From Sneathiella sp. (lineage in GTDB: Bacteria > Pseudomonadota > Alphaproteobacteria > Sneathiellales > Sneathiellaceae), in the NCBI RefSeq assembly GCF_002694385.1, contig NZ_NZMB01000011.1, positions 1 to 64,000 of the forward strand: DNA of 64,000 nucleotides. The letters run 5' to 3'. This document shows, one piece after another, positions 98 through 10,353 of the stretch; the first letter of the stretch is position 1, and each line of letters starts with the position of its first letter. A program made the position numbers and the translations under genes. The notes under the pieces were generated by a model. The model did no database searches and was not told where the DNA came from. It saw only the letters and a list, made by a program, of their open reading frames with translations.

Positions 98-925
98 GGC
101 ACTGTCAGAAGAAAATAGCTTGTCGCCCAATCTATCGTTTTTTACTCTGCGTGAATGACAGAACATAATCCTTTCCGGTATTTCAAAACCTCACCTGAGA
201 TCATCCGCCTAGCCGTGATGATGTATGTCCGATTTCCGCTTTCCCTTCGCAATGTTGAAGACCTTCTTCATGAACGGGGTATCGATATTTGCCATGAGAC
301 TGTGCGTTATTGGTGGAACAAATTTGGCTTAATGTTCGCAAATGAAATCCGTAAGAAGCGGATCCATCCGTCTCACAATTATTCAAACTGGAAATGGCAC
401 CTTGATGAGGTCTTTGTGAAGATCAATGGTGAAACACACTATTTGTGGCGTGCCGTCGACCACGAGGGCGAAGTGCTGGAAGCCTATGTTTCCAAGCGCC
501 GCGATCGCAAGGCAGCAATTGTTTTCCTCAAGAAACTTATGAAACGGTATGGAAAACCTCATGTGATTGTAACGGACAGATTACGTTCTTACCGTGCCGC
601 TATGAAATCCATCGGAAATGCCGAAGTTCAAGAGTTAGGTCGGTGGAAGAATAATCGCTGTGAAAACTCTCATCTGCCGTTTCGACGACGAGAATACGCA
701 ATGCTGCAATTCAGGCGCTTGCAAAGCTTGCAGAAATTTGTCTCAATCCACTCATCAATCCATAACCACTTCAACCATGAACGCCACCTAACCAGCCGAG
801 GAGAATTCAAGCTTCAGAGAAATGCTGCATTGGTCGAGTGGCAGCAACTTAGTGCGGTATAATACGGGCGCCGCTACGCAATTTTACGCCATACAGAGAC
901 GACGTCGCATTAGTCTGACAGCACC
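98..925 (+). mobile_element. IS6-family insertion sequence
   Basis: An approximately 828-bp element of typical IS6/IS26 size holds a single transposase. The left end begins GGCACTGTCAGA (98-109) and the right end is TCTGACAGCACC (914-925), which is an inverted copy with 10 of 12 positions matching. No 8-bp target duplication is visible: GATTTGGG on the left against TTCGGGAT on the right. The flanks have therefore probably been rearranged since insertion, as is common for IS6 elements that resolve cointegrates. Confidence 0.8.
155..862 (+). CDS. IS6-family DDE transposase
   Basis: A 235-residue protein of normal IS6 length. The N-terminal helix-turn-helix region contains the family signature RNVEDLLHERG (about 32-42) followed by CHETVRYWWNKFG (46-58). 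The DDE RNase-H-like core has WHLDEVFVKI (first Asp near 84), VTDRLRSY (second Asp near 141) and NNRCENSH (Glu near 170). The reading frame is intact, so the enzyme may be active. Some Rhizobiales and plasmid IS6 members share the RRREYAMLQFR motif near the C-terminus. Confidence 0.93.
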   Translation: MTEHNPFRYFKTSPEIIRLAVMMYVRFPLSLRNVEDLLHERGIDICHETVRYWWNKFGLMFANEIRKKRIHPSHNYSNWKWHLDEVFVKINGETHYLWRAVDHEGEVLEAYVSKRRDRKAAIVFLKKLMKRYGKPHVIVTDRLRSYRAAMKSIGNAEVQELGRWKNNRCENSHLPFRRREYAMLQFRRLQSLQKFVSIHSSIHNHFNHERHLTSRGEFKLQRNAALVEWQQLSAV

Positions 926-1162: not shown

Positions 1163-2095
1163 ATGAAACTATCAATTGTATCGACCTTGTATAAATCGGC
1201 TGCTCATATTGCGGAGTTTCATGAACGCATCAGCAAGGCGGCTAAGGAATTGGTAGGTCAGGATTACGAAATAGTGCTGGTAAATGACGGTTCGCCTGAC
1301 GACAGCCTGGAACTTGCTATCGAGATTGCTGACAGGGATGATCATGTCTGTATTGTCGATCTGTCGCGTAATTTTGGTCACCACAAGGCAATGATGGCCG
1401 GACTTGCGCACTCCAAAGGTGACTATGTTTTTCTGATTGATAGTGATCTGGAAGAAGATCCTGATTGGCTCAGGGCTTTTTCAATACAAATGGCGGAGGA
1501 AAACTGCGATGTTGTCTATGGCATACAGAGCCAACGCAAGGGCGGATGGTTTGAGAGATGGTCCGGGAATTTATATTACAGGGTTTTCAAACTCCTGATA
1601 GATATTGATCATCCAACAAATATCACGACGGTCAGACTTATGACCCGGCGATATGTAGACGCTTTGTTGACCTATAAAGAACGGGCAATTGTTATTTCCG
1701 GTTTGTGGGTGTTAACGGGGTTTGATCAAAAACCGCGATTGGTGACAAAAAAGTCCAGCAGCCCGACGACCTATAGTTTGGTTCATAAGTTATCTCATGC
1801 GGTGAACGTTATTACGTCGTTTAGCAGCAGGCCCTTGATTTTCATTTTCTTTACGGGGCTGATTATTTTCTTATTATCAATGGCCTATGTGGTGTTTATT
1901 GTTCTCAATCGACTGCTGTTTATGACACCCCTCGATGGGTGGACATCTGTCATGGCATCAATTTGGCTGTTGGGGGGGATCATAATCTCGTTTATAGGAA
2001 TAATTGGAATCTATTTATCAAAGATTTTTATTGAAACTAAAGAACGTCCGAATGTGATTGTCAGGGGCCTTTATGGAAAACACGGCAGAGATTGA
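1163..2095 (+). CDS. GtrB/DPM1-like family 2 glycosyltransferase
   Basis: A 310-residue GT-A enzyme expected to transfer a sugar from a nucleotide donor to a polyprenyl phosphate on the cytoplasmic face of the membrane. The nucleotide-binding motif NDGSPD is at 41-46 and the metal-binding DSD at 93-95. FGHHKAMMAG (71-80) is typical of the GtrB/ArnC branch. Two C-terminal membrane helices (about 224-247 and 262-287) precede the family tail ETKERPNVIVR. It is first in the operon and overlaps the next gene by 23 bp. The operon ends in a GtrA flippase, the usual partner of GtrB. The sugar cannot be told from sequence. Confidence 0.88.
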   Translation: MKLSIVSTLYKSAAHIAEFHERISKAAKELVGQDYEIVLVNDGSPDDSLELAIEIADRDDHVCIVDLSRNFGHHKAMMAGLAHSKGDYVFLIDSDLEEDPDWLRAFSIQMAEENCDVVYGIQSQRKGGWFERWSGNLYYRVFKLLIDIDHPTNITTVRLMTRRYVDALLTYKERAIVISGLWVLTGFDQKPRLVTKKSSSPTTYSLVHKLSHAVNVITSFSSRPLIFIFFTGLIIFLLSMAYVVFIVLNRLLFMTPLDGWTSVMASIWLLGGIIISFIGIIGIYLSKIFIETKERPNVIVRGLYGKHGRD

Positions 2096-2765
2096 CGAGA
2101 GATACACCAAATTTTATGGCGATAGAAAGCATACAAAAGTTTATCCGACAGAGTTTGTTGTGCGGACATTGCTGGCCGATTACCCTGGTCTGAACTACCA
2201 AAAACCGCAGGCCGGAAATTCAATTCTGGATATGGCTTTTGGCGATGGACGAAATACTGCTTTTCTGTGTGATTTAGGGCTGGATGTATCTGGAATTGAA
2301 ATATCCCGTGGCATCATTGAACAGACAGGGGCCCGATTGAAATCGCTGGGGTACGCGCCTGAGTTGCGGGTCGGGCGAAACAGCAATATCCCTTTCGAGA
2401 ATGAAACCTTCGACTATATCCTCGCCTGTCACTGCTGCTACTATTGTGATGAGGGAGAAACTCTGCTCGATAACCTCAATGAATATCAACGTGTTATGAA
2501 GCCTGGCGGCGTGCTGATAGCCTCCGTTGCAGACAAAACATCATATATTTTCCGGAATGCCGAAGAGATGGGTGATGGCTCGATGCGAATAGCCGGAGAC
2601 CCCTATGGAAACCGGAATGGATATCGGCTCCACGGCTTTTCAGCAGAAAAGGATATCGAAGAATATTTTTCACAGTATTTTGGCAATTTTTCATTTGGAC
2701 ATGCGAACAATGATTATTACGGTCGGCGTGAAAAGTTATTTTGGATCGTTTGCCAAAAGAAATGA
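2073..2765 (+). CDS. class I SAM-dependent methyltransferase
   Basis: A 230-residue Rossmann-fold methyltransferase. Motif I is ILDMAFGDGRN (51-61), the acidic end of strand 2 is in SGIEIS (73-78), and the post-motif-III region MKPGGVLIA lies at 142-150. The ATG at 2073 has an AGGGG ribosome site six bases upstream and gives a 23-bp overlap with the glycosyltransferase gene; an upstream in-frame TTG at 2058 is less likely. A role methylating a sugar or its acyl substituent is inferred from context. The acceptor is unknown. Confidence 0.82.
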   Translation: MENTAEIDERYTKFYGDRKHTKVYPTEFVVRTLLADYPGLNYQKPQAGNSILDMAFGDGRNTAFLCDLGLDVSGIEISRGIIEQTGARLKSLGYAPELRVGRNSNIPFENETFDYILACHCCYYCDEGETLLDNLNEYQRVMKPGGVLIASVADKTSYIFRNAEEMGDGSMRIAGDPYGNRNGYRLHGFSAEKDIEEYFSQYFGNFSFGHANNDYYGRREKLFWIVCQKK

Positions 2766-3757
2766 GACGTATCAGTATGAAAAGCATGCCATATCGCTGC
2801 CCGGTCTGTAAAAGCGAGTTATCAATTGAAGCGGGTGTCGGGTTGCGGTGTTCAAACGCACATACATTCGAATTTGTAGAGGGCACCACCATTCCGTTAT
2901 TCGACAGCGAAAACAGCGATGCCAATGAATATACAATTTCTAATGCGGCGGAAATTCACGAAAACGCCTTGAGATGGGTCTTCAACACATACAGTACCAG
3001 TGAAGAAGAGCTCAGGGAAAACCTCTTGTCCAGATTACGGTTGGTGGCAGGGCAAAAGGTCCTGATAACCGGTGTCGGGGGAGGAAATGATTTGCCGTAT
3101 CTCGCGGGGAAAGTCGGGAAGAACGGCATTATTTTTGCCCAGGATTATGCCGGTGAGATGTTGCTGTCAGCCGTTGAGCGATCGGCTGACATTTATGGTT
3201 TGGCAGAATACAACATCGAATTTTCAATCAGTGACGCAACAAACCTGCCATTTCATGATGGCTATTTTGATGCTGTTTTCCATTTTGGGGGGTTGAATTT
3301 ATTTTCTGATGTTGCGGCAGGAATTTCAGAAATGGACCGGGTTGTCAAAGACGGCGGCAGGGTCGTGTTTGGCGATGAGGGGCTTGCTCCCTGGCTAAAA
3401 GATACAGATTATGGGCGTATGATCATAAATAACAATCCATTGTTGAATTTCTCGGCGCCGCTTGAACATATCCCGACGACGGCAAGACATCTGAATTTAT
3501 CCTGGGATCCAAGCTATTGTTTTTACATCATTGATTATACTGCGGCGAAAGAGCCTCTACCCCTAAACATTGATGTTCCCCATGTCGGCACCCGTGGCGG
3601 GTCGATCCGCACCCGATATTTTGGACAATTGGAAGGGGTGGACCCCGATCTCAAGGCGGCGCTGTATGCGGAAGCAAAAAAGCGGGGAATAGATAGGGTG
3701 TCGTTTCTTGAAGCGATTTTGCGGGACGGCCTGGAAAGAAAAGATGATAACGGATAA
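2762..3757 (+). CDS. methyltransferase with N-terminal zinc-finger-like domain
   Basis: A 331-residue protein. The N-terminus has a C-x2-C-x13-C-x3-H pattern (C13, C16, C30, H34), like the zinc ribbon of RlmA and Trm112-type methyltransferases. A SAM-binding Rossmann domain follows, with motif I VLITGVGGGND at 100-110 and a motif near DATNLPF typical of class I enzymes. The C-terminal roughly 100 residues match no family I recognise. The start at 2762 forms an ATGA overlap with the upstream stop; ATG 2777 is an alternative. The operon suggests a sugar or small-molecule acceptor rather than RNA. Confidence 0.78.
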   Translation: MRRISMKSMPYRCPVCKSELSIEAGVGLRCSNAHTFEFVEGTTIPLFDSENSDANEYTISNAAEIHENALRWVFNTYSTSEEELRENLLSRLRLVAGQKVLITGVGGGNDLPYLAGKVGKNGIIFAQDYAGEMLLSAVERSADIYGLAEYNIEFSISDATNLPFHDGYFDAVFHFGGLNLFSDVAAGISEMDRVVKDGGRVVFGDEGLAPWLKDTDYGRMIINNNPLLNFSAPLEHIPTTARHLNLSWDPSYCFYIIDYTAAKEPLPLNIDVPHVGTRGGSIRTRYFGQLEGVDPDLKAALYAEAKKRGIDRVSFLEAILRDGLERKDDNG

Positions 3758-4679
3758 ATTCAACTGGAAGAAAAAAGGTCTTTTGTTTGAACCGCCCATA
3801 TCCGGCTTTTCTCATGGGTCCCATCCATGCATCATCCACAAAAAAGGCAATGACTTTGTCGTGGCATTCACCTGTCGTGATGTAGAAAGACGATCTCATA
3901 TTTTCCTGTCGGATGCGGTTGTATCGGACGGAGAAATCAGACTTATGGGGCAGCCAAAACTGGTTCTGGCACCTGGGGATCCCGGATACTTCGATTGTGA
4001 TGGCGTCATTAGCGGGTGCTTTGTGGCGCATAGTGGGGTCTGTTACCTTTATTTTGTTGGATGGCAAAATCTGCCTGAAGGGCTTTGGATTTGCGATACT
4101 GGCAGAGCAATTGTAGATATTGAAAAGCTGGAGGCAAAAAAGGAATATCTGGGCCCTGTCTTGGGTAGGGATAAAACTAATCCGCTATTCGCCGCAGCTA
4201 CCGCGTTTCATATCGATAGTGGAGGGCGTTGGCACGCGTGGTTTAATTCTGGTATTCACTGGAAGAAAACCTCAGAAGGATGGAGCCATCGCTATGGCTT
4301 TCATCATGCGGAATCCGGTGACGGGGTTGACTGGATATGTGAAACCGAGATGTGCATACCATTTGCCGATGAATATGAATATGCGTTTGGACGGCCCAGT
4401 GTGGTTTATTGGGATAATTTATTTCATATGTGGTTTGCCCATCGCGCGACTAAGGATATTGACACGTATCGCATTGGTTTCGCGTCGTCGAAGGATGGCC
4501 TAAACTGGGAAAGGAATGATGCGATCGCAGGTATCGATGTGTCCAGTGAGGGGTGGGATTCCGAAATGATTTGCTATCCTTCCGTGTTCTTGCACCAAGG
4601 TCAAAAGTATATGCTTTATAACGGTAATGGCTATGGAAGTACGGGTTTTGGCTATGCTGTGATAGAGGATCAAAAATGA
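3744..4679 (+). CDS. five-bladed beta-propeller, GH43/GH32-like protein
   Basis: A 311-residue protein with repeated propeller blade signatures: SGDGVDW and SKDGLNW inside YGFHHAES and YRIGFASS contexts, plus YMLYNGNGYG at the end. These are typical of GH32/43/68/130-type five-bladed propellers. No signal peptide is visible, so it should act in the cytoplasm, which is unusual for a glycosidase in an export operon. It may hydrolyse, rearrange or bind a glycan intermediate. The ATG at 3744 follows a purine-rich site (GGAAAGAAAAG) and overlaps the methyltransferase gene by 14 bp. Catalytic residues could not be assigned. Confidence 0.68.
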   Translation: MITDKFNWKKKGLLFEPPISGFSHGSHPCIIHKKGNDFVVAFTCRDVERRSHIFLSDAVVSDGEIRLMGQPKLVLAPGDPGYFDCDGVISGCFVAHSGVCYLYFVGWQNLPEGLWICDTGRAIVDIEKLEAKKEYLGPVLGRDKTNPLFAAATAFHIDSGGRWHAWFNSGIHWKKTSEGWSHRYGFHHAESGDGVDWICETEMCIPFADEYEYAFGRPSVVYWDNLFHMWFAHRATKDIDTYRIGFASSKDGLNWERNDAIAGIDVSSEGWDSEMICYPSVFLHQGQKYMLYNGNGYGSTGFGYAVIEDQK

Positions 4680-5350
4680 AAAAAGTCATTTTAGCTGGAA
4701 ATGCCACAACCGCGGATATTCTGAACAGCTATCTCGCTCATGATGACCGGTACGAAGTCATAGGACTTGCTGTGGATGATGATTATGTGGAGCGGGGGAG
4801 CGTAACTGGATTTGAGTCGAGCATTACCTTGTCCAAATTAAAAGATACACATAGTCCGCGGGATTGCGTCATCATCATGGCCATGGGATATGATGATTTA
4901 AACAAAACAAGACAATCCATGTTTCAGCGTCTGAAGAAAACGGGGTACAGCATTGAAACCTATGTACACCCAGATGCAAATATTTATTCCGATCATCCAT
5001 TGGGAGAGGGATGCGTTATCCTCCCTTCCGCGGTGATTGAGCCGCATGTTCGAATAGGCGCAAACACAATGATCTGGAGTAATACGACACTCGCCCATCA
5101 TTGTAGCGTTGCAGAGAATTGCTGGATCGCGTCCGGCGCAGTTATTTCCGGGAAGGCCCATATCAAGGACAATTGCTTTATTGGCGTTAATGCAACAATC
5201 GTAAATGGCAAGACTGTTGGTGAATATTGTGTTATTGGCGGCGGGGTTTTAATCACAAAGGATACTAAACCTTCCTCGGTGCATTTGTCGCGATCAGGGG
5301 AGGAACTTCGTTTCACCTCTGAAGAATATGTGAAATTTTTTGGAATTTAA
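4676..5350 (+). CDS. NeuD/PglD-like sugar O/N-acyltransferase
   Basis: A 224-residue protein of the sialic-acid O-acetyltransferase NeuD / PglD type. An N-terminal Rossmann-like domain begins MKKVILAGNA. From about residue 110 it becomes a left-handed beta-helix of hexapeptide repeats (GEGCVILPSAVIEPHVRIGANTMI region, then ISGKAHIKDN and IGVNATIVNG). The His pair at 141-142 (LAHHCSV) sits where the catalytic His of PglD lies. It probably transfers an acyl group to an amino- or hydroxy-sugar. It overlaps the upstream gene by ATGA and ends one base before the ACP start. Confidence 0.8.
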   Translation: MKKVILAGNATTADILNSYLAHDDRYEVIGLAVDDDYVERGSVTGFESSITLSKLKDTHSPRDCVIIMAMGYDDLNKTRQSMFQRLKKTGYSIETYVHPDANIYSDHPLGEGCVILPSAVIEPHVRIGANTMIWSNTTLAHHCSVAENCWIASGAVISGKAHIKDNCFIGVNATIVNGKTVGEYCVIGGGVLITKDTKPSSVHLSRSGEELRFTSEEYVKFFGI

Positions 5351-5351
5351 A

Positions 5352-5591
5352 ATGAATGAGAAGTTGGTTTCAGTTCTAGCTGAAGTATTTAACTTGCAAC
5401 CGGATCAGATCGTACCTGAACTCACGAAAGAAAATGTGGGAAGCTGGGATTCGTTAAAGCAAATGGACCTTGTAATATCTCTTGAGCGGCAATATGGCGT
5501 AACTCTCCAGGTTGAGGATATTATTCAGCTGGTGTCCGTCGCAAAAATTGCGGAAGTACTGAAACGGAAGGGCGTCGATCTTGGAGATTAA
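5352..5591 (+). CDS. acyl carrier protein
   Basis: A 79-residue acidic helical carrier. The phosphopantetheine attachment serine is S34 in WDSLKQMDLV, the standard DSL motif. Family length is 75-90. The ATG at 5352 starts right after the upstream stop (5348-5350); a TTG at 5340 would overlap it. It is not next to fab genes but sits between an acyltransferase and a reductase, with an adenylation enzyme in the same operon. It is therefore likely a dedicated carrier for a specialised acyl or aminoacyl group rather than the fatty-acid ACP. Confidence 0.86.
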   Translation: MNEKLVSVLAEVFNLQPDQIVPELTKENVGSWDSLKQMDLVISLERQYGVTLQVEDIIQLVSVAKIAEVLKRKGVDLGD

Positions 5592-6321
5592 GGGGGCAGT
5601 CGCGTTAGTGACCGGCGGCGCCAATGGACTTGGGTTGGCAATCGCGACGTTTTTGAGTGAGCAGGGTGCGCATGTTGTCGTTGGCGATCTTGATGAAGAT
5701 GCGCTGTCCGGGCTTGGGGGAGAATTTGATCATCACGTGCTTGATGTAACCTGTCCCGATAACGTTACTAAAGTCGTAAATGATATTGTTAAGAAACACG
5801 GCCGTATTGACATTCTGGTCAATAATGCAGGGGTCATATTTAATGAGCCTCTGGTAAACATTATGAACCCAGAAGGCATGATCCATGACTATACGCGTTT
5901 TCGTAACTCAATCGCCGTCAATCTGGACTCAGTCTTCCTCATGACCGGAGCTGTCGTTGAGCATATGATCAAAGGCCGGACGAAGGGCTGTATCGTTAAT
6001 ATCAGCTCAATTAGCGCGCGCGGAAATGAAGGGCAAACTGCCTATTCGGCAGCAAAGAGCGGCGTTAATGCCATGACGGTTACTTGGTCGAAGGAACTCG
6101 GGAGAATGGGGATCAGATGTAACGCAATCGCGCCGGGATTCATCAATACCGGATCGACCAATTCCGCCCTTACCGAAACGACAATCAACCATATCGTAGC
6201 AAACACACCAGTTCGGCGTTTGGGGGAAGCCAAAGAAGTTGCACAGGCAGTTGTCAGTGTCATAAGCAATGATTTCATCAATGGCACAATCCTGGAGGTA
6301 AATGGCGGGATTACGATTTGA
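5581..6321 (+). CDS. SDR-family oxidoreductase (FabG-like)
   Basis: A 246-residue classical short-chain dehydrogenase. The NAD(P)-binding motif TGGANGLG is at 11-18 and NNAG at 81-84. The catalytic residues are S142, Y155 and K159 in the YSAAK context. The closing motif is VNGGITI. Classical length and the neighbouring ACP suggest reduction of a 3-oxoacyl or similar ACP-bound group, although a sugar substrate is also possible. The start must be the TTG at 5581: no ATG precedes the cofactor motif, and GGAAGGG (5566-5572) is a good ribosome site. It overlaps the ACP gene by 11 bp. Confidence 0.85.
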   Translation: MEIKGAVALVTGGANGLGLAIATFLSEQGAHVVVGDLDEDALSGLGGEFDHHVLDVTCPDNVTKVVNDIVKKHGRIDILVNNAGVIFNEPLVNIMNPEGMIHDYTRFRNSIAVNLDSVFLMTGAVVEHMIKGRTKGCIVNISSISARGNEGQTAYSAAKSGVNAMTVTWSKELGRMGIRCNAIAPGFINTGSTNSALTETTINHIVANTPVRRLGEAKEVAQAVVSVISNDFINGTILEVNGGITI

Positions 6322-6323
6322 CG

Positions 6324-7118
6324 ATGCGGCGGCTTGAAAAAAAAGACTACGGCCTTGTATATGAATTATACAAAGATCTTGACTATTTCTTTCCCCTTAT
6401 TGTCGCGGTCTTGCTGGATGAGCAAGAGGGCGCTGTTTTTGTCGATCACGTGAATTCGCCCTCTATGGCTTATGTTGAACATGCCTTCGGCTTTTCCCAG
6501 ATATTTGGCAACTCATCGAAATTAAACGGATTTCTGGAAAGTTGGACGTCTTGGCTGTTGCGAGAAAAACAGTTCCGTACCGAAAAAGTCCGGCTGTATT
6601 CCCCACCGCCGTCCGGATCGTTTCTAACGGAAACAAAAAGCGTCGCTCTTTCCGAGAGACAGCGGTTCTACCTCGATCCAGACCGGTTTTCGAAACAGCG
6701 GGAACGTTCCTGCAGCAACATCCCGGCTGATATCAAGGGGCGTAAACTGACAAAAGACGATCTCGATGACATTGAAAACACTTTTCACGTCGTCACGCGA
6801 TTTTGGAGAAACCCGGATGATTTCCTGGAGAAAGCAAATCCCTATTTGATAACCTATCAAAATAAATTCGCGTCACTATGCTATTCTGCGGCAACGGCGG
6901 ATGGATATGCCGAGATTGATGTTGTCACATTGCCGGAATACAGAAAACTGGGGTTGGCGCGTCATGCGGTGACAGGGTTTATAGAAAATTGCCACGAAGC
7001 CGGCATTTGTCCGCTTTGGGATTGCTTTACAAATAATGAGGGGTCAGTGGCTCTCGCCGCGGCGGTAGGGTTCATGCCTCGAAATCCGCCATATAATTTT
7101 TTCACAATTAACAAATGA
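6324..7118 (+). CDS. GNAT-family acyltransferase
   Basis: A 264-residue protein. Its C-terminal half carries the acyl-CoA binding core TLPEYRKLGLARHAV, with a QRxGxA-like loop, followed by WDCFTNNEGSVALAAAVGF, a typical GNAT strand-helix end. The N-terminal half is poorly conserved; overall it resembles two-domain GNAT_acetyltransf_2 proteins. It may transfer the group made on the adjacent carrier protein, but acetyl-CoA is the default donor for the family. The ATG at 6324 follows the SDR stop by two bases; a TTG at 6318 is an alternative start. Confidence 0.7.
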   Translation: MRRLEKKDYGLVYELYKDLDYFFPLIVAVLLDEQEGAVFVDHVNSPSMAYVEHAFGFSQIFGNSSKLNGFLESWTSWLLREKQFRTEKVRLYSPPPSGSFLTETKSVALSERQRFYLDPDRFSKQRERSCSNIPADIKGRKLTKDDLDDIENTFHVVTRFWRNPDDFLEKANPYLITYQNKFASLCYSAATADGYAEIDVVTLPEYRKLGLARHAVTGFIENCHEAGICPLWDCFTNNEGSVALAAAVGFMPRNPPYNFFTINK

Positions 7119-7195
7119 TATAGATTGCGTCTGCGTTTTCTATATGTACAGACTTTTGCCGTGCAACAATGGCCGCCACACAATGGACGTGGATT

Positions 7196-8740
7196 ATGAC
7201 AGAGTATTTTTATAATTTAGGCTTGTCGTTCTCAACTGCCGCAAAGACGCACGGCGCCTGCATTGCTTTGCGGTATCCGGACAAGCAATATAGCTATGCC
7301 GACTTGTTGGGCTGGGTCGAAAGCCTTGCGACGCGGTTGCTGGCCAATAATCTGCAACGAGGCGATGTTATTGCTATCGGCGGCAGTAAAAGCCCTCTTT
7401 CATATGCGTTGATGCTGGCTGCGTTGCGATTGGGTGTTGTGTATGTAAATCTGGATGTTGCCTCGCCCTTGTCGAGAAATTTACGCATAGTAAAGCTTAG
7501 CGGTGCGAAGCATATTTTCTACGACGATCCTGAATATTTTCCGGCTATGGAAGAGCTGGCACAAAGTAGTCATTGTAAAATATTATCTCTGGATTTTGAA
7601 GCTCTCCCGGAAGTAGCGTCTGCTGATCGGGAGTTACAGCATAACCTGATGCAAAAGGTGGATGGCGCGACCATCGCCTATGTGATGTTCACTTCTGGGT
7701 CTACGGGCGAGCCGAAAGGGGTTGCGGTTACGCATCAAAACGTCCTGCATTTTATCTCATGGGGTATTGCGCGTTTCCAGATTGGCAATCAGGATAATTT
7801 CGCCAATATCAGCCCGATGTATTTCGATAATTCGGTATTCGATTTTTATGTCGGCCTGTTTTCCGGGGCGTCGCTCACTCCGGTTTCACGCAAATTGCTA
7901 ACCAGCCCTTATGATCTGGTCGCGCATGTCGGAAACATGCAATGCACGATCTGGTTTTCTGTTCCGTCAATGCTGATTTATCTTATGGCAATGAAAGCGA
8001 TGACCCCAAAAGCACTGCCCCGCTTGCGGCGTATTATTTTTGGTGGTGAAGGTTATCCAAAGTCTGAATTAAAAAAGCTGTTTGACTTGTTTCACACGCA
8101 AGCAATTTTGGTCAATGTTTACGGCCCGACGGAATGCACCTGCATCTGCAGTGCCTATGATATCAGCAGTCATGACTTCACAGATCTGGAGGGACTGCCA
8201 CCGCTCGGGCAACTCAATCAAAATTTTGACTATCGCATTCTGGATGACCAGGACGAGGATGCTAAGGTTGGAGAACTTTGTCTGATCGGCCCTAATGTGG
8301 CGGCTGGTTACTTCAATGATCTACAGCGGACGACGTCTTCATTTTTTACTTTGGCCATTCCCCGGTTTTTCATGAAGCAAATGTACCGTACCGGGGACAT
8401 TGTCCGGGAGTCTGACGGAATACTCTATTTCAATGGGCGTAAAGATAACCAGATCAAGCACATGGGATACCGTATTGAGCTGGAGGAGATCGAGCATGCA
8501 TTGGCGAAGCTTCCCGGCGTCAACCAATCGGCTGTGATCTATCAAAGAACGAATGCCGCTTATGGCAAGCTGGTTGGCTTTATTGCAAGTGCGACGGAAA
8601 TTGATGAGAAAGATTTAAAAGAAAAGCTGGGCGATCTCCTGCCGGATTATATGATACCGAGTGTAATAATTGTCAGAACCGATCTGCCGAAAAATGCAAA
8701 TGGCAAGGTCGACAGGCAAAAACTCGGCACATTGATTTGA
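7196..8740 (+). CDS. amino-acid-type adenylation enzyme (DltA/NRPS A-domain-like)
   Basis: A 514-residue stand-alone ANL enzyme. Seen motifs: A3 FTSGSTGEPKG (165-175), A4-like YFDNSVFDFY (209-218), A5 NVYGPTEC (307-314), A7 YRTGD, A8 GRKDNQIKHMGYRIE, and A10 NANGKVDR with the catalytic Lys. The Asp in FDNS matches the residue that binds the alpha-amino group in NRPS and DltA enzymes, so an amino acid substrate is likely. Loading onto the ACP at 5352 is inferred, by analogy with DltA/DltC. ATG 7169 is an alternative start; 7196 fits the family N-terminus better. Confidence 0.85.
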   Translation: MTEYFYNLGLSFSTAAKTHGACIALRYPDKQYSYADLLGWVESLATRLLANNLQRGDVIAIGGSKSPLSYALMLAALRLGVVYVNLDVASPLSRNLRIVKLSGAKHIFYDDPEYFPAMEELAQSSHCKILSLDFEALPEVASADRELQHNLMQKVDGATIAYVMFTSGSTGEPKGVAVTHQNVLHFISWGIARFQIGNQDNFANISPMYFDNSVFDFYVGLFSGASLTPVSRKLLTSPYDLVAHVGNMQCTIWFSVPSMLIYLMAMKAMTPKALPRLRRIIFGGEGYPKSELKKLFDLFHTQAILVNVYGPTECTCICSAYDISSHDFTDLEGLPPLGQLNQNFDYRILDDQDEDAKVGELCLIGPNVAAGYFNDLQRTTSSFFTLAIPRFFMKQMYRTGDIVRESDGILYFNGRKDNQIKHMGYRIELEEIEHALAKLPGVNQSAVIYQRTNAAYGKLVGFIASATEIDEKDLKEKLGDLLPDYMIPSVIIVRTDLPKNANGKVDRQKLGTLI

Positions 8741-8759
8741 AATACGCGTAAAGTCTTTA

Positions 8760-9164
8760 ATGGTAAAATTTTCAGACATCTATCAAATCATTCGTTTTGG
8801 AATCGTAGGTGTGCTCAACAACTTGCTGGGCTACGTTATCTATCTGCTGCTCACCTATTTTTGGCTGGACCCAAAAGTCGCAGTTACAATTCTTTACCCT
8901 ATTGGGGTTCTGGTCGCTTATTTCAGTCATGCAAAATATTCTTTTGCGCATCAGGGAAAGCACATATGGGCAATCGGCCGGTTTTTTTCTTCCTATTTTC
9001 TCTGTTATTGGCTCAATTTATCGATGCTGTATCTATTTTCAGACAGGCTGGGCTTTCCCCATCAGATAGTTCAGGCATTCGCCATCGTTATGGTTGGCGG
9101 CGTTCTATACCTGTTGCTTAAATTCTTTGTGTTCTGGCGTCATTCGACAGAAGATGGTAAATGA
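8760..9164 (+). CDS. GtrA-family membrane protein (polyprenyl-sugar flippase type)
   Basis: A 134-residue protein with four hydrophobic segments (about 12-32, 40-58, 75-97 and 103-125) and the family pattern FGIVGVLNNLLGYVIY near the N-terminus. GtrA proteins move undecaprenyl-phosphate-linked sugars across the inner membrane. It closes the operon that opens with a GtrB-like transferase. No GtrC-type periplasmic transferase is present in the window, so the final acceptor is unknown. Confidence 0.85.
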   Translation: MVKFSDIYQIIRFGIVGVLNNLLGYVIYLLLTYFWLDPKVAVTILYPIGVLVAYFSHAKYSFAHQGKHIWAIGRFFSSYFLCYWLNLSMLYLFSDRLGFPHQIVQAFAIVMVGGVLYLLLKFFVFWRHSTEDGK

Positions 9165-9392
9165 TTTTGCTCTGAGATTTCGGGCGACGAAGGTGCTCGG
9201 ATATTTCTGAGTAAGGAATATCTATGAGACGCGGATATCAAGCAGGCAGGCTTTGTCATGTATGAACGGCTCCAATTTTGCAAGAGATAAATTGAAACAA
9301 CCGTAATCGAAGTGGTTGCGGTCATGTGTTTGGCCGACTTTATCAAAAGAAAACTGCTTGTTTGTCACTTTCTCGACTACTAGCTTCCGAGT

Positions 9393-9660
9393 ATGACACA
9401 AAAGAACCCATTCCGATATTTTAAACCTCATCTGAGATCAACTGCCTAGCGATCAGATTTGCACTTTACTCTTGGCAATGTTGAAAGTTTTCTTCGTGAA
9501 TGTAGCATAGATATTTGCCCTGAAACAGCTCGCTAATGGTGGAATAGATTTGGGTCGATGTTCGCTGTGAGATCCGGAAGAAACGGGCCATAGTCTAAAC
9601 AATCGCTGTGAAAACTCACACCTGCCATTTCGGTGACGAGAGCAGGCGATGCTGGTATTA
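9393..9660 (+). pseudogene. decayed IS6-family transposase, internally deleted
   Basis: The stretch from ATG 9393 follows the transposase at 155 base by base with many substitutions and small indels (the first codons encode TQKNPFRYF, like TEHNPFRYF). It has a premature stop in the CHETVRYWW region and several frameshifts. After about 9594 it jumps to the part matching the NNRCENSHLPF region (near 649 in the intact copy), so roughly 270-300 bp of the DDE core are missing. Similarity fades by about 9660. It lies in the same orientation as the intact IS6. Confidence 0.8.
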
Positions 9661-10126
9661 GGTGCCGAAGTTTTTTTGAGCCGATATTTGACGCAAACTC
9701 ATCATAAACCTTTACGGCATGGGTATTCAGCTTACGCCAGTGTTCAACCTGCATACCTGAAAGGCGTAGCTGCTTTTTCAGTTTCTGATGAACACTGCGG
9801 TGGGCTTGGGTGAGAACGTAGGCCAGATTTTCGATGACAGATCATTTTGCGAACTGAAGCGGCTGGGCGGATGAATGATCTCACTAGCTGAAAGCCTGCA
9901 TGTTTATCGGGGAGCATTTTCAAACGCAATATCGGGGGCGGTATTACTGCAAAGTCCAGAATTTAATGCGGCGGGTCCGGAAAAATACAAGGAGGCGCGG
10001 AAATAATTTGATCTCTTACTGGTTTCAACATTGCCAATTAAGGTGCAGAAAGTTCCGGGCTCTGACGCCCCCTCGCGGAATATGTGACCCACGCATTTAA
10101 GATGGTTGGTAATACATCGGCTTTTA
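9661..10126. other. gene graveyard at the island border
   Basis: No intact gene is present. Short frames in several phases carry protein-like stretches but are interrupted, including a plus-strand piece reading LLQSPEFNAAG that stops at about 10002 and that I cannot name. Together with the MarR-like and CoA-ligase fragments nearby, this looks like repeated insertion and deletion at the right junction of the foreign island. Confidence 0.55.
9728..9844 (-). pseudogene. MarR-like regulator N-terminal fragment
   Basis: The minus strand reads an uninterrupted stretch containing ENLAYVLTQAHRSVHQKL followed by a segment ending VEHWRKL. This matches the first helix and start of the winged helix of MarR proteins (LAYLLxxAHRxVxxxL...WRVL). 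Past 9728 towards lower coordinates the MarR pattern is lost, near the IS6 remnant. No start or downstream domain can be joined in frame. The identification comes from family pattern memory only. Confidence 0.4.
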
Positions 10127-10353
10127 ATTCCGGACGACAGGTTCGGCGAGGAAGTCTGCGCCTGGATCATCCCGCGAGATGGGCCGAGCTAACGGAGGGC
10201 ATGATAAAAGCATACTGTCAAAACCAGATTGCTCATTATAAGATCCCCAGATACGTCAGGGTGGTGTCGGAACTGCCTCTGACAGTCACCGGAAAGCTCC
10301 AGAAGTTTGTTATGCGGGATGAAATGTTGAAAATACTGGGCCAAAGTGACTAG
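10127..10353 (+). pseudogene. C-terminal fragment of an acyl-CoA synthetase, frameshifted
   Basis: From 10127 the frame reads IPDDRFGEEVCAWIIPRDG and then stops. A shift of frame near 10182 restores AELTEGMIKAYCQ, then IAHYKIPRYVRVV and LPLTVTGKLQKFVMRDEM, the end of an AMP-binding enzyme with its A10 lysine (TGKLQK). The N-terminal roughly 80% is absent. It ends 48 bp before an intact but unrelated-looking acyl-CoA synthetase. It probably belonged to the chromosome before the island arrived. Confidence 0.75.

Follow-up and report, generated by a model that had tools for sequence, protein, structure and literature searches.

A ten-gene operon of Sneathiella sp. probably encodes an aminoacyl-carrier line that decorates an amino sugar for the cell surface. 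The operon occupies positions 1163-9164 of the window, that is, the stretch of 64,000 nucleotides at the start of contig NZ_NZMB01000011.1 (RefSeq assembly GCF_002694385.1) that was analyzed here, and includes a stand-alone adenylation enzyme, an acyl/peptidyl carrier protein (ACP), a short-chain dehydrogenase/reductase (SDR), a GNAT acetyltransferase, a NeuD-like N-acyltransferase, a GT2 glycosyltransferase and a GtrA-type membrane protein (Table 1). What we observe is gene content and order, conservation, catalytic motifs, an invariant specificity code, the mutually exclusive exchange of amine-capping enzymes, and the loss of a sister cassette; from these we infer each reaction, the amino acid, the order of the steps and the final acceptor.

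Conservation and distribution of the operon

All ten genes lie on the + strand and are separated by overlaps or gaps of <80 bp based on the open reading frame (ORF) list and a Pfam search, and the GC content of the operon is 0.462 vs. 0.575 in the window past 10 kb. Both the set of co-directional genes with overlaps or gaps mostly <80 bp and the low GC content had been noted in an earlier, sequence-only reading of this DNA, and were borne out here. A second Sneathiella genome, a metagenome-assembled genome (MAG; PAKP01000003.1), carries 10/10 genes in the same order with 71-89% amino acid identity, and a Dongia MAG carries nine in the same order with 40-67% identity, GtrA being the gene not present. 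The dN/dS ratio between the two Sneathiella copies was 0.04-0.13 for all ten genes, values that are rough with dS near saturation and that indicate purifying selection on every gene of the operon. Because the Sneathiella and Dongia copies keep the gene order and dN/dS is low, the operon does not represent a chance cluster.

To assess how far this gene set extends, we searched with the adenylation enzyme, using one genome per species, and obtained 79 loci. Loci with an adenylation enzyme of >=40% identity formed the core set (50 loci, 48 of them distinct, including the window and two genomes counted twice), and 32 loci with <40% identity served as background. The ACP, the SDR and the NeuD-like protein were each found in 47/50 core loci (vs. 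1/32, 2/32 and 1/32 background loci, respectively), the propeller protein in 46/50 (vs. 0/32), methyltransferase 2 in 38/50 (vs. 0/32), an aminotransferase homologue in 39/50 (vs. 1/32) and WbqC in 31/50 (vs. 0/32), with the absences of core genes due in part to contig ends; methyltransferase 1 was present in 30/50 core loci. Hence, the co-occurrence of the ACP, SDR, GNAT and adenylation genes in other genomes, which the sequence-only reading had proposed as a check, turned out strongly positive.

The 47 core loci that came from the scan belong to nine phyla and show two architectures. Group I is found mostly in Proteobacteria and Thermodesulfobacteriota, usually with GT2 and GtrA, the GT2 orthologue being the first gene in nearly all of these operons; group II is found in Eremiobacterota, Verrucomicrobiota, Acidobacteriota and others, mostly without GT2 and GtrA, and thus the acyl line is independent of the lipid step. 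Three loci (L060, L061 and L067, from Roseomonas, Bosea and an Acetobacteraceae MAG) have the adenylation gene first and the GNAT gene last, and neither a GT2 nor a GtrA homologue was detected in them. A FemAB-like GNAT of ~300 amino acids (PF13480) recurs near group II modules (L078 3148-4077, L069, L074, L076, L077, L079, L081, L083, L098), and several of the group II loci with this protein also have a TylF-type methyltransferase. The line is rare, being present in 2/385 alphaproteobacterial genomes sampled (the window's own genome included), and the same holds for the GNAT. No blastn match to the Legionella copy of the module was obtained in 5,426 E. coli genomes, a search of limited sensitivity, and no orthologous module was found on plasmids at E 1e-80 or in viral contigs, the phage matches listed being NRPS-like enzymes of ~30% identity (NRPS, nonribosomal peptide synthetase).

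A probable single amino acid and its proposed exchangeable caps

The adenylation enzyme matches PF00501 and, for its C-terminal domain, PF13193, both above cut-off, and its solved relatives are of the NRPS and DltA type, with LgrA as the top relative in the PDB. An alignment of 49 loci shows that the A3, A5 and A8 motifs and the equivalents of Asp235, which binds the alpha-amine, and Lys517 are kept. Mapping the textbook positions onto this alignment gave the ten-residue code D-N-F-F-x-G-V-C-I-K, which is identical in 48/49 loci (the exception being L073) apart from the variable position 299. The near-invariant code points to a single conserved substrate and the presence of the Asp235 and Lys517 equivalents to an alpha-amino acid; the substrate is, therefore, probably one particular amino acid.

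The enzyme that would cap the amine of this amino acid is not fixed. The 50 core loci encode a PF12746 GNAT (28 loci), a RimJ-type GNAT (8), a formyltransferase (7) or none of these (7); that is, exactly one capping enzyme is present in 43/50 core loci and two together in 0/50 (background, 0/32). In most group I loci the PF12746 GNAT gene sits between the SDR and adenylation genes, and it is in this same slot that the formyltransferase is found in Labrenzia, Roseibium, Thiocapsa, one Desulfovibrionaceae and Sulfurimonas. At least six changes are needed to place the formyltransferase label on the tree of the adenylation enzyme, and the formyltransferases retain their Asn-His-Asp residues. For the GNAT, the nearest structure to the model is PamZ (template modeling score, TM, 0.81; profile match E 5e-25), an acetyltransferase that acts on an N-terminal amine. 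Fmt formylates carrier-bound methionine and RimJ acetylates the N-terminus of proteins, and the three enzymes fit the role of alternative caps for one amine of one amino acid, to judge from their families. Since the capping enzyme changes while the adenylation code stays constant, an N-capped amino acid is favored over a generic acyl group, and we consider it the most likely identity of the ACP-bound group. Of the evidence newly obtained here, this exchange of caps is the strongest.

Alternatively, the GNAT or formyltransferase might cap a second amine on the sugar and not that of the amino acid on the carrier. In favor of this possibility, dTDP-4-amino sugars are known substrates of sugar formyltransferases and of GNATs, among them WecD, and WecD appears, although low, among the structural matches to the GNAT. 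However, the 4-amine is the one amine predicted on the sugar and is the expected target of NeuD, the capping gene lies between the SDR and adenylation genes in most group I loci, and PamZ acetylates the terminal amine of an amino acid; capping of a sugar amine is improbable for these reasons.

A second alternative starts from a short hydroxy or fatty acid, which would be activated by the ligase, reduced on the ACP by the SDR and transferred by NeuD, like a 3-hydroxybutanoyl group, to give a "liposugar". The SDR is indeed FabG-like in sequence, and enterobacterial flagellin islands hold ACP, FabG, ligase, NeuD, aminotransferase and methyltransferase genes (PMC4875605). Nevertheless, this scenario is unlikely: the adenylation enzyme is of the NRPS/DltA group and retains the Asp that binds the alpha-amine, the operon is without a ketoacyl synthase based on Pfam, the amine-capping enzyme of 43/50 loci would be left without a role, and the SDR orthologues carry the NAD(H)-type D36 in 47/47 cases, together with the Ser-Tyr-Lys triad (S142, Y155, K159). 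The SDR scores 193 bits against the FabG equivalog model TIGR01830, below the cut-off of 297.75. D36 fits oxidation or epimerization as well, which makes doubtful the earlier suggestion that the operon reduces its ACP-bound group; methylation, the other part of that suggestion, we keep as a proposal.

Proposed pathway and its acceptor

Under the model that we favor, i.e., an N-capped amino acid carried to an amino sugar, the adenylation enzyme would activate one dedicated amino acid and then load the operon's own ACP, the phosphopantetheine-bearing WDS motif of which is kept in 47/47 orthologues. The SDR would alter the oxidation state or stereochemistry of the carrier-bound amino acid and the GNAT would acetylate the free amine of the aminoacyl-ACP, in an order that the model leaves free. 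The NeuD-like transferase would pass the capped group to the 4-amine of a dTDP-4-amino-4,6-dideoxyhexose, which RmlA, RmlB and a WecE-type aminotransferase encoded outside the operon would provide, and one or both methyltransferases may methylate the sugar or the acyl group. Subsequently, GT2 would put the product on undecaprenyl phosphate, GtrA would flip it, and a polytopic transferase, also encoded outside the operon, would deliver the sugar to a surface acceptor.

The NeuD-like protein scored 157.9 bits against TIGR03570 (NeuD/PglB/VioB; cut-off 160.8) in a nearly full-length alignment, and its PDB relatives are the perosamine and bacillosamine N-acetyltransferases, which act on 4-amino sugar nucleotides. 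Because these relatives acetylate 4-amino sugar nucleotides and homologues of dTDP-4-amino-4,6-dideoxygalactose-type transaminases are present in 39/50 loci, the 4-amine of a soluble dTDP-4-amino-4,6-dideoxyhexose is, judging by homology, the most likely acceptor, and a soluble sugar-nucleotide acceptor implies that acylation precedes lipid linkage. Of the sequence-only proposal that a dedicated ACP-bound group is placed on a lipid-linked sugar, the dedicated group and the hand-over to lipid are supported, with the positive co-occurrence result behind them, and the order of the two steps is most likely reversed.

Transfer of the amino acid could also take place at the membrane, in a Dlt-like manner, with a periplasmic or lipid-linked glycan receiving it from the carrier. 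DltA is the top named family of the adenylation enzyme (310 bits), and the operon, like DltA/DltC, combines a stand-alone adenylation enzyme with a small carrier. However, the scores of 300 bits vs. a cut-off of 559.85 (TIGR01734) and 310 vs. 476 (NF003417) are far too low, no DltB (MBOAT) or DltD was seen in the operon or the flanking genes examined (the whole genome was not searched), and 47/50 loci encode a soluble NeuD-like acyltransferase. We consider such a mechanism very unlikely and, based on the sub-cut-off DltA scores and the missing DltB/DltD partners, rejected D-alanylation of the Dlt type; the comparison with Dlt that had been drawn from the sequence holds as an analogy.

Several points weigh against the model as a whole. 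Known NeuD enzymes use acetyl-CoA, and the use of aminoacyl-ACP is assumed here; the conserved SDR has only a predicted role on the carrier-bound group; and even the nearest textbook codes, which we take to be those for isoleucine and valine, have only about half of the positions in common with the code observed. In group II, several kb separate the capping gene from the adenylation gene, so that the same-slot argument is weaker for these loci, and 7 core loci, two of them truncated, have no capping enzyme of the three kinds. In the own genome, the 12 kb around RmlB held no RmlA (no genome-wide search was made). Finally, the pathway is a prediction from gene content, conservation and motifs.

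Probable replacement of a sister cassette

The aminotransferase and sugar-making genes lie outside the operon, elsewhere in the own genome: WbqC and a WecE-type transaminase, the latter above the cut-off of the dTDP-4-amino-4,6-dideoxygalactose transaminase model, are both on another contig, and an RmlB homologue (60% identical) is on a third contig (C18:327809). Beside WbqC and the transaminase, two other Sneathiella genomes encode an intact sister cassette with the order GT2, methyltransferase, NeuD, propeller, GtrA. In the own genome (L029 10619-14160, contig C17), the sister GT2, NeuD and GtrA genes are frameshifted and the propeller gene is interrupted by three stops. Next to this decayed cassette, WbqC, the transaminase and both methyltransferases stay open. 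The operon-bearing MAG lacks five sister-cassette genes in the interval from WbqC to the second methyltransferase. Both operon-bearing Sneathiella genomes retain WbqC and the aminotransferase, and the most economical explanation is a takeover of the sister cassette's task by the incoming operon. Sequencing error was considered as the cause of the decay, but real decay is favored, given that the stretch holds no ambiguous bases, that the propeller gene contains as many as three stops and that the operon-bearing MAG is without these genes too; single indels in homopolymers are still possible. Many scattered single N bases are found elsewhere on contig C17, at L029 1-1674 and 17765-19831.

Sister cassettes are also found in Rhizobium, Peteryoungia and Azospirillum, near WbqC and often near dTDP-4-amino-sugar genes. 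They are similar to the operon in having homologous GT2, NeuD and propeller genes and, in most cases, a protein of the GtrA or EamA type, and differ from it in lacking the ACP, SDR, GNAT and adenylation enzyme; the propeller is, therefore, not specific to the ACP line. In the tree, the NeuD of the sister cassettes branches outside that of group I, and it presumably uses acetyl-CoA.

These findings also bear on the possibility that the gene set makes a small secreted glycosylated metabolite rather than a surface glycan. The NRPS-like enzymes would fit such a product, and lincosamides join an amino acid and an amino sugar via adenylation and carrier parts (PMC4351081). In contrast, GT2 and GtrA, WbqC, the dTDP-sugar genes, the wide conservation and the replacement of a sister glycan cassette all speak for a surface glycan, and a metabolite is exceedingly unlikely.

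A protein of 690 amino acids with ~11 predicted membrane segments and no Pfam match (L029 16268-18340) is conserved in three Sneathiella genomes, close to the sugar genes, and is a possible candidate for the final transferase, of the GT-C type.

Relation to known systems and implications

The enzymes are of known kinds and, provisionally, the assembled pathway appears undescribed. The initiation module of linear gramicidin synthase LgrA (F-A-PCP) formylates carrier-bound valine, and is similar in logic to the formyltransferase variants of our module, but it is part of one multidomain peptide-making protein and involves no sugar. Pseudomonas syringae viosamine and Bacillus anthracis anthrose are N-acylated, O-methylated dTDP-4-amino-4,6-dideoxy sugars with 3-hydroxyacyl groups; we know of no amino-acid adenylation or amine-capping enzyme in their pathways. 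Lincosamide synthetase has a stand-alone adenylation domain (LmbC) and carrier (LmbN) that activate an amino acid, which ends up amide-linked to an amino sugar (PMC4351081), but that system uses other condensing proteins and yields an antibiotic, and no NeuD, GtrA or GT2 is described there. Condensing proteins of the LmbD/LmbV/LmbE type are not annotated in the operon, although no direct search was made. The flagellin glycosylation islands of enterobacteria, which hold Acp, FabG, CaiC, NeuD, DegT and Fmt genes, were read as possibly making a liposugar (PMC4875605); the likeness is one of gene types, with orthology not shown. Amino sugars with N-linked amino acids are known as chemical structures (PMC10609480, PMC3210612). 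The open-access literature searched held no described pathway with this gene set, in agreement with the sequence-only reading, nor enzymes for amino-acid-decorated sugars, most subscription papers, including those on O-antigens, being outside the search.

Many bacterial surface sugars bear N-linked amino acids, often N-acetylated, and the line encoded by the operon would supply a route for their attachment. If the model is correct, a portable line with a fixed adenylation code and swappable acetyl or formyl caps exists in nine phyla, linking NRPS-style chemistry to surface glycans and explaining epitope changes through cassette swaps. The carrier line also makes direct tests with purified proteins possible.

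It is intriguing to hypothesize, tentatively and with considerable doubt, that the amino acid is threonine and that the module makes threonine-derived N-acyl groups. Thr-S-ACP would be N-acetylated and its beta-hydroxyl then oxidized by the NAD-type SDR; the resulting ketone could be re-reduced to give allothreonine, or be attacked by the acetamide methyl to give a 3-hydroxy-3-methyl-5-oxoprolyl ring, with C-methylation before ring closure leading to the 2,3-dimethyl form. All three products are found on amino sugars, namely N-acetyl-L-allothreonyl in Vibrio cholerae O43, 3-hydroxy-3-methyl-5-oxoprolyl in V. cholerae O5 and 3-hydroxy-2,3-dimethyl-5-oxoprolyl in Plesiomonas shigelloides O74 (PMC10609480). 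This is a guess from chemistry; nothing found ties the module to these strains, and, set against textbook codes, the observed code does not resemble one for Thr. To our knowledge, the biosynthesis of these groups is unexplained so far, and, if threonine is the substrate, one enzyme set would account for three odd structures and, jointly, for the SDR, the GNAT and a methyltransferase.

Genes of the operon and neighboring features

Table 1. Genes of the operon and the upstream transposase, with window coordinates (SAM, S-adenosylmethionine; pLDDT, predicted local distance difference test of the AlphaFold2 model).
Feature	Position	Strand	Evidence and predicted role
IS6/IS240-type DDE transposase	155..862	+	PF13610 DDE_Tnp_IS240 E 4e-43; outside pathway
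GT2 glycosyltransferase, GtrB/ArnC/PgfS-like	1163..2095	+	PF00535 E 2e-27; predicted sugar loading onto undecaprenyl phosphate
SAM methyltransferase 1 (class I)	2073..2765	+	PF08241 E 8e-14
SAM methyltransferase 2 (class I), N-terminal zinc-ribbon-like segment	2786..3757	+	PF13649 E 7e-14
Five-bladed propeller, GH43/GH130/GH137-like fold	3744..4679	+	weak GH130-type Pfam match; pLDDT 94
NeuD/PglD/PerB-like left-handed beta-helix N-acyltransferase	4676..5350	+	hexapeptide repeats (Pfam); predicted ACP-to-sugar 4-amine transfer
Acyl/peptidyl carrier protein, phosphopantetheine Ser in WDSL	5352..5591	+	PF00550 E 1e-8
FabG-like SDR, adh_short_C2	5581..6321	+	PF13561 E 2e-49; predicted action on carrier-bound group
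PF12746 GNAT	6318..7118	+	Pfam; predicted N-acetyl capping of aminoacyl group
Stand-alone NRPS/DltA-type adenylation enzyme, code DNFFIGVCIK	7196..8740	+	PF00501 E 2e-70
GtrA-type small membrane protein, predicted flippase	8760..9164	+	PF04138 66.7 bits, cut-off 26.1

The starts given for the ACP (5352) and methyltransferase 1 (2073) are refinements that are more likely than those of the ORF list. The nearest NCBIfam relatives of GT2 are PgfS and ArnC, each match being far below its own cut-off, and the top Foldseek match of the propeller model is BT_0996 (TM 0.76). Promoter and terminator scans were uninformative, with sites no more numerous than in shuffles. The upstream IS6/IS240-type transposase is possibly linked to the acquisition of the operon; matches to the pattern of IS6-type end repeats around the operon were no higher than chance. 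Downstream of the operon, no intact gene is evident at 9165-10353, where the ORF at 10084-10353 resembles the C-terminus of a decayed acyl-CoA ligase.

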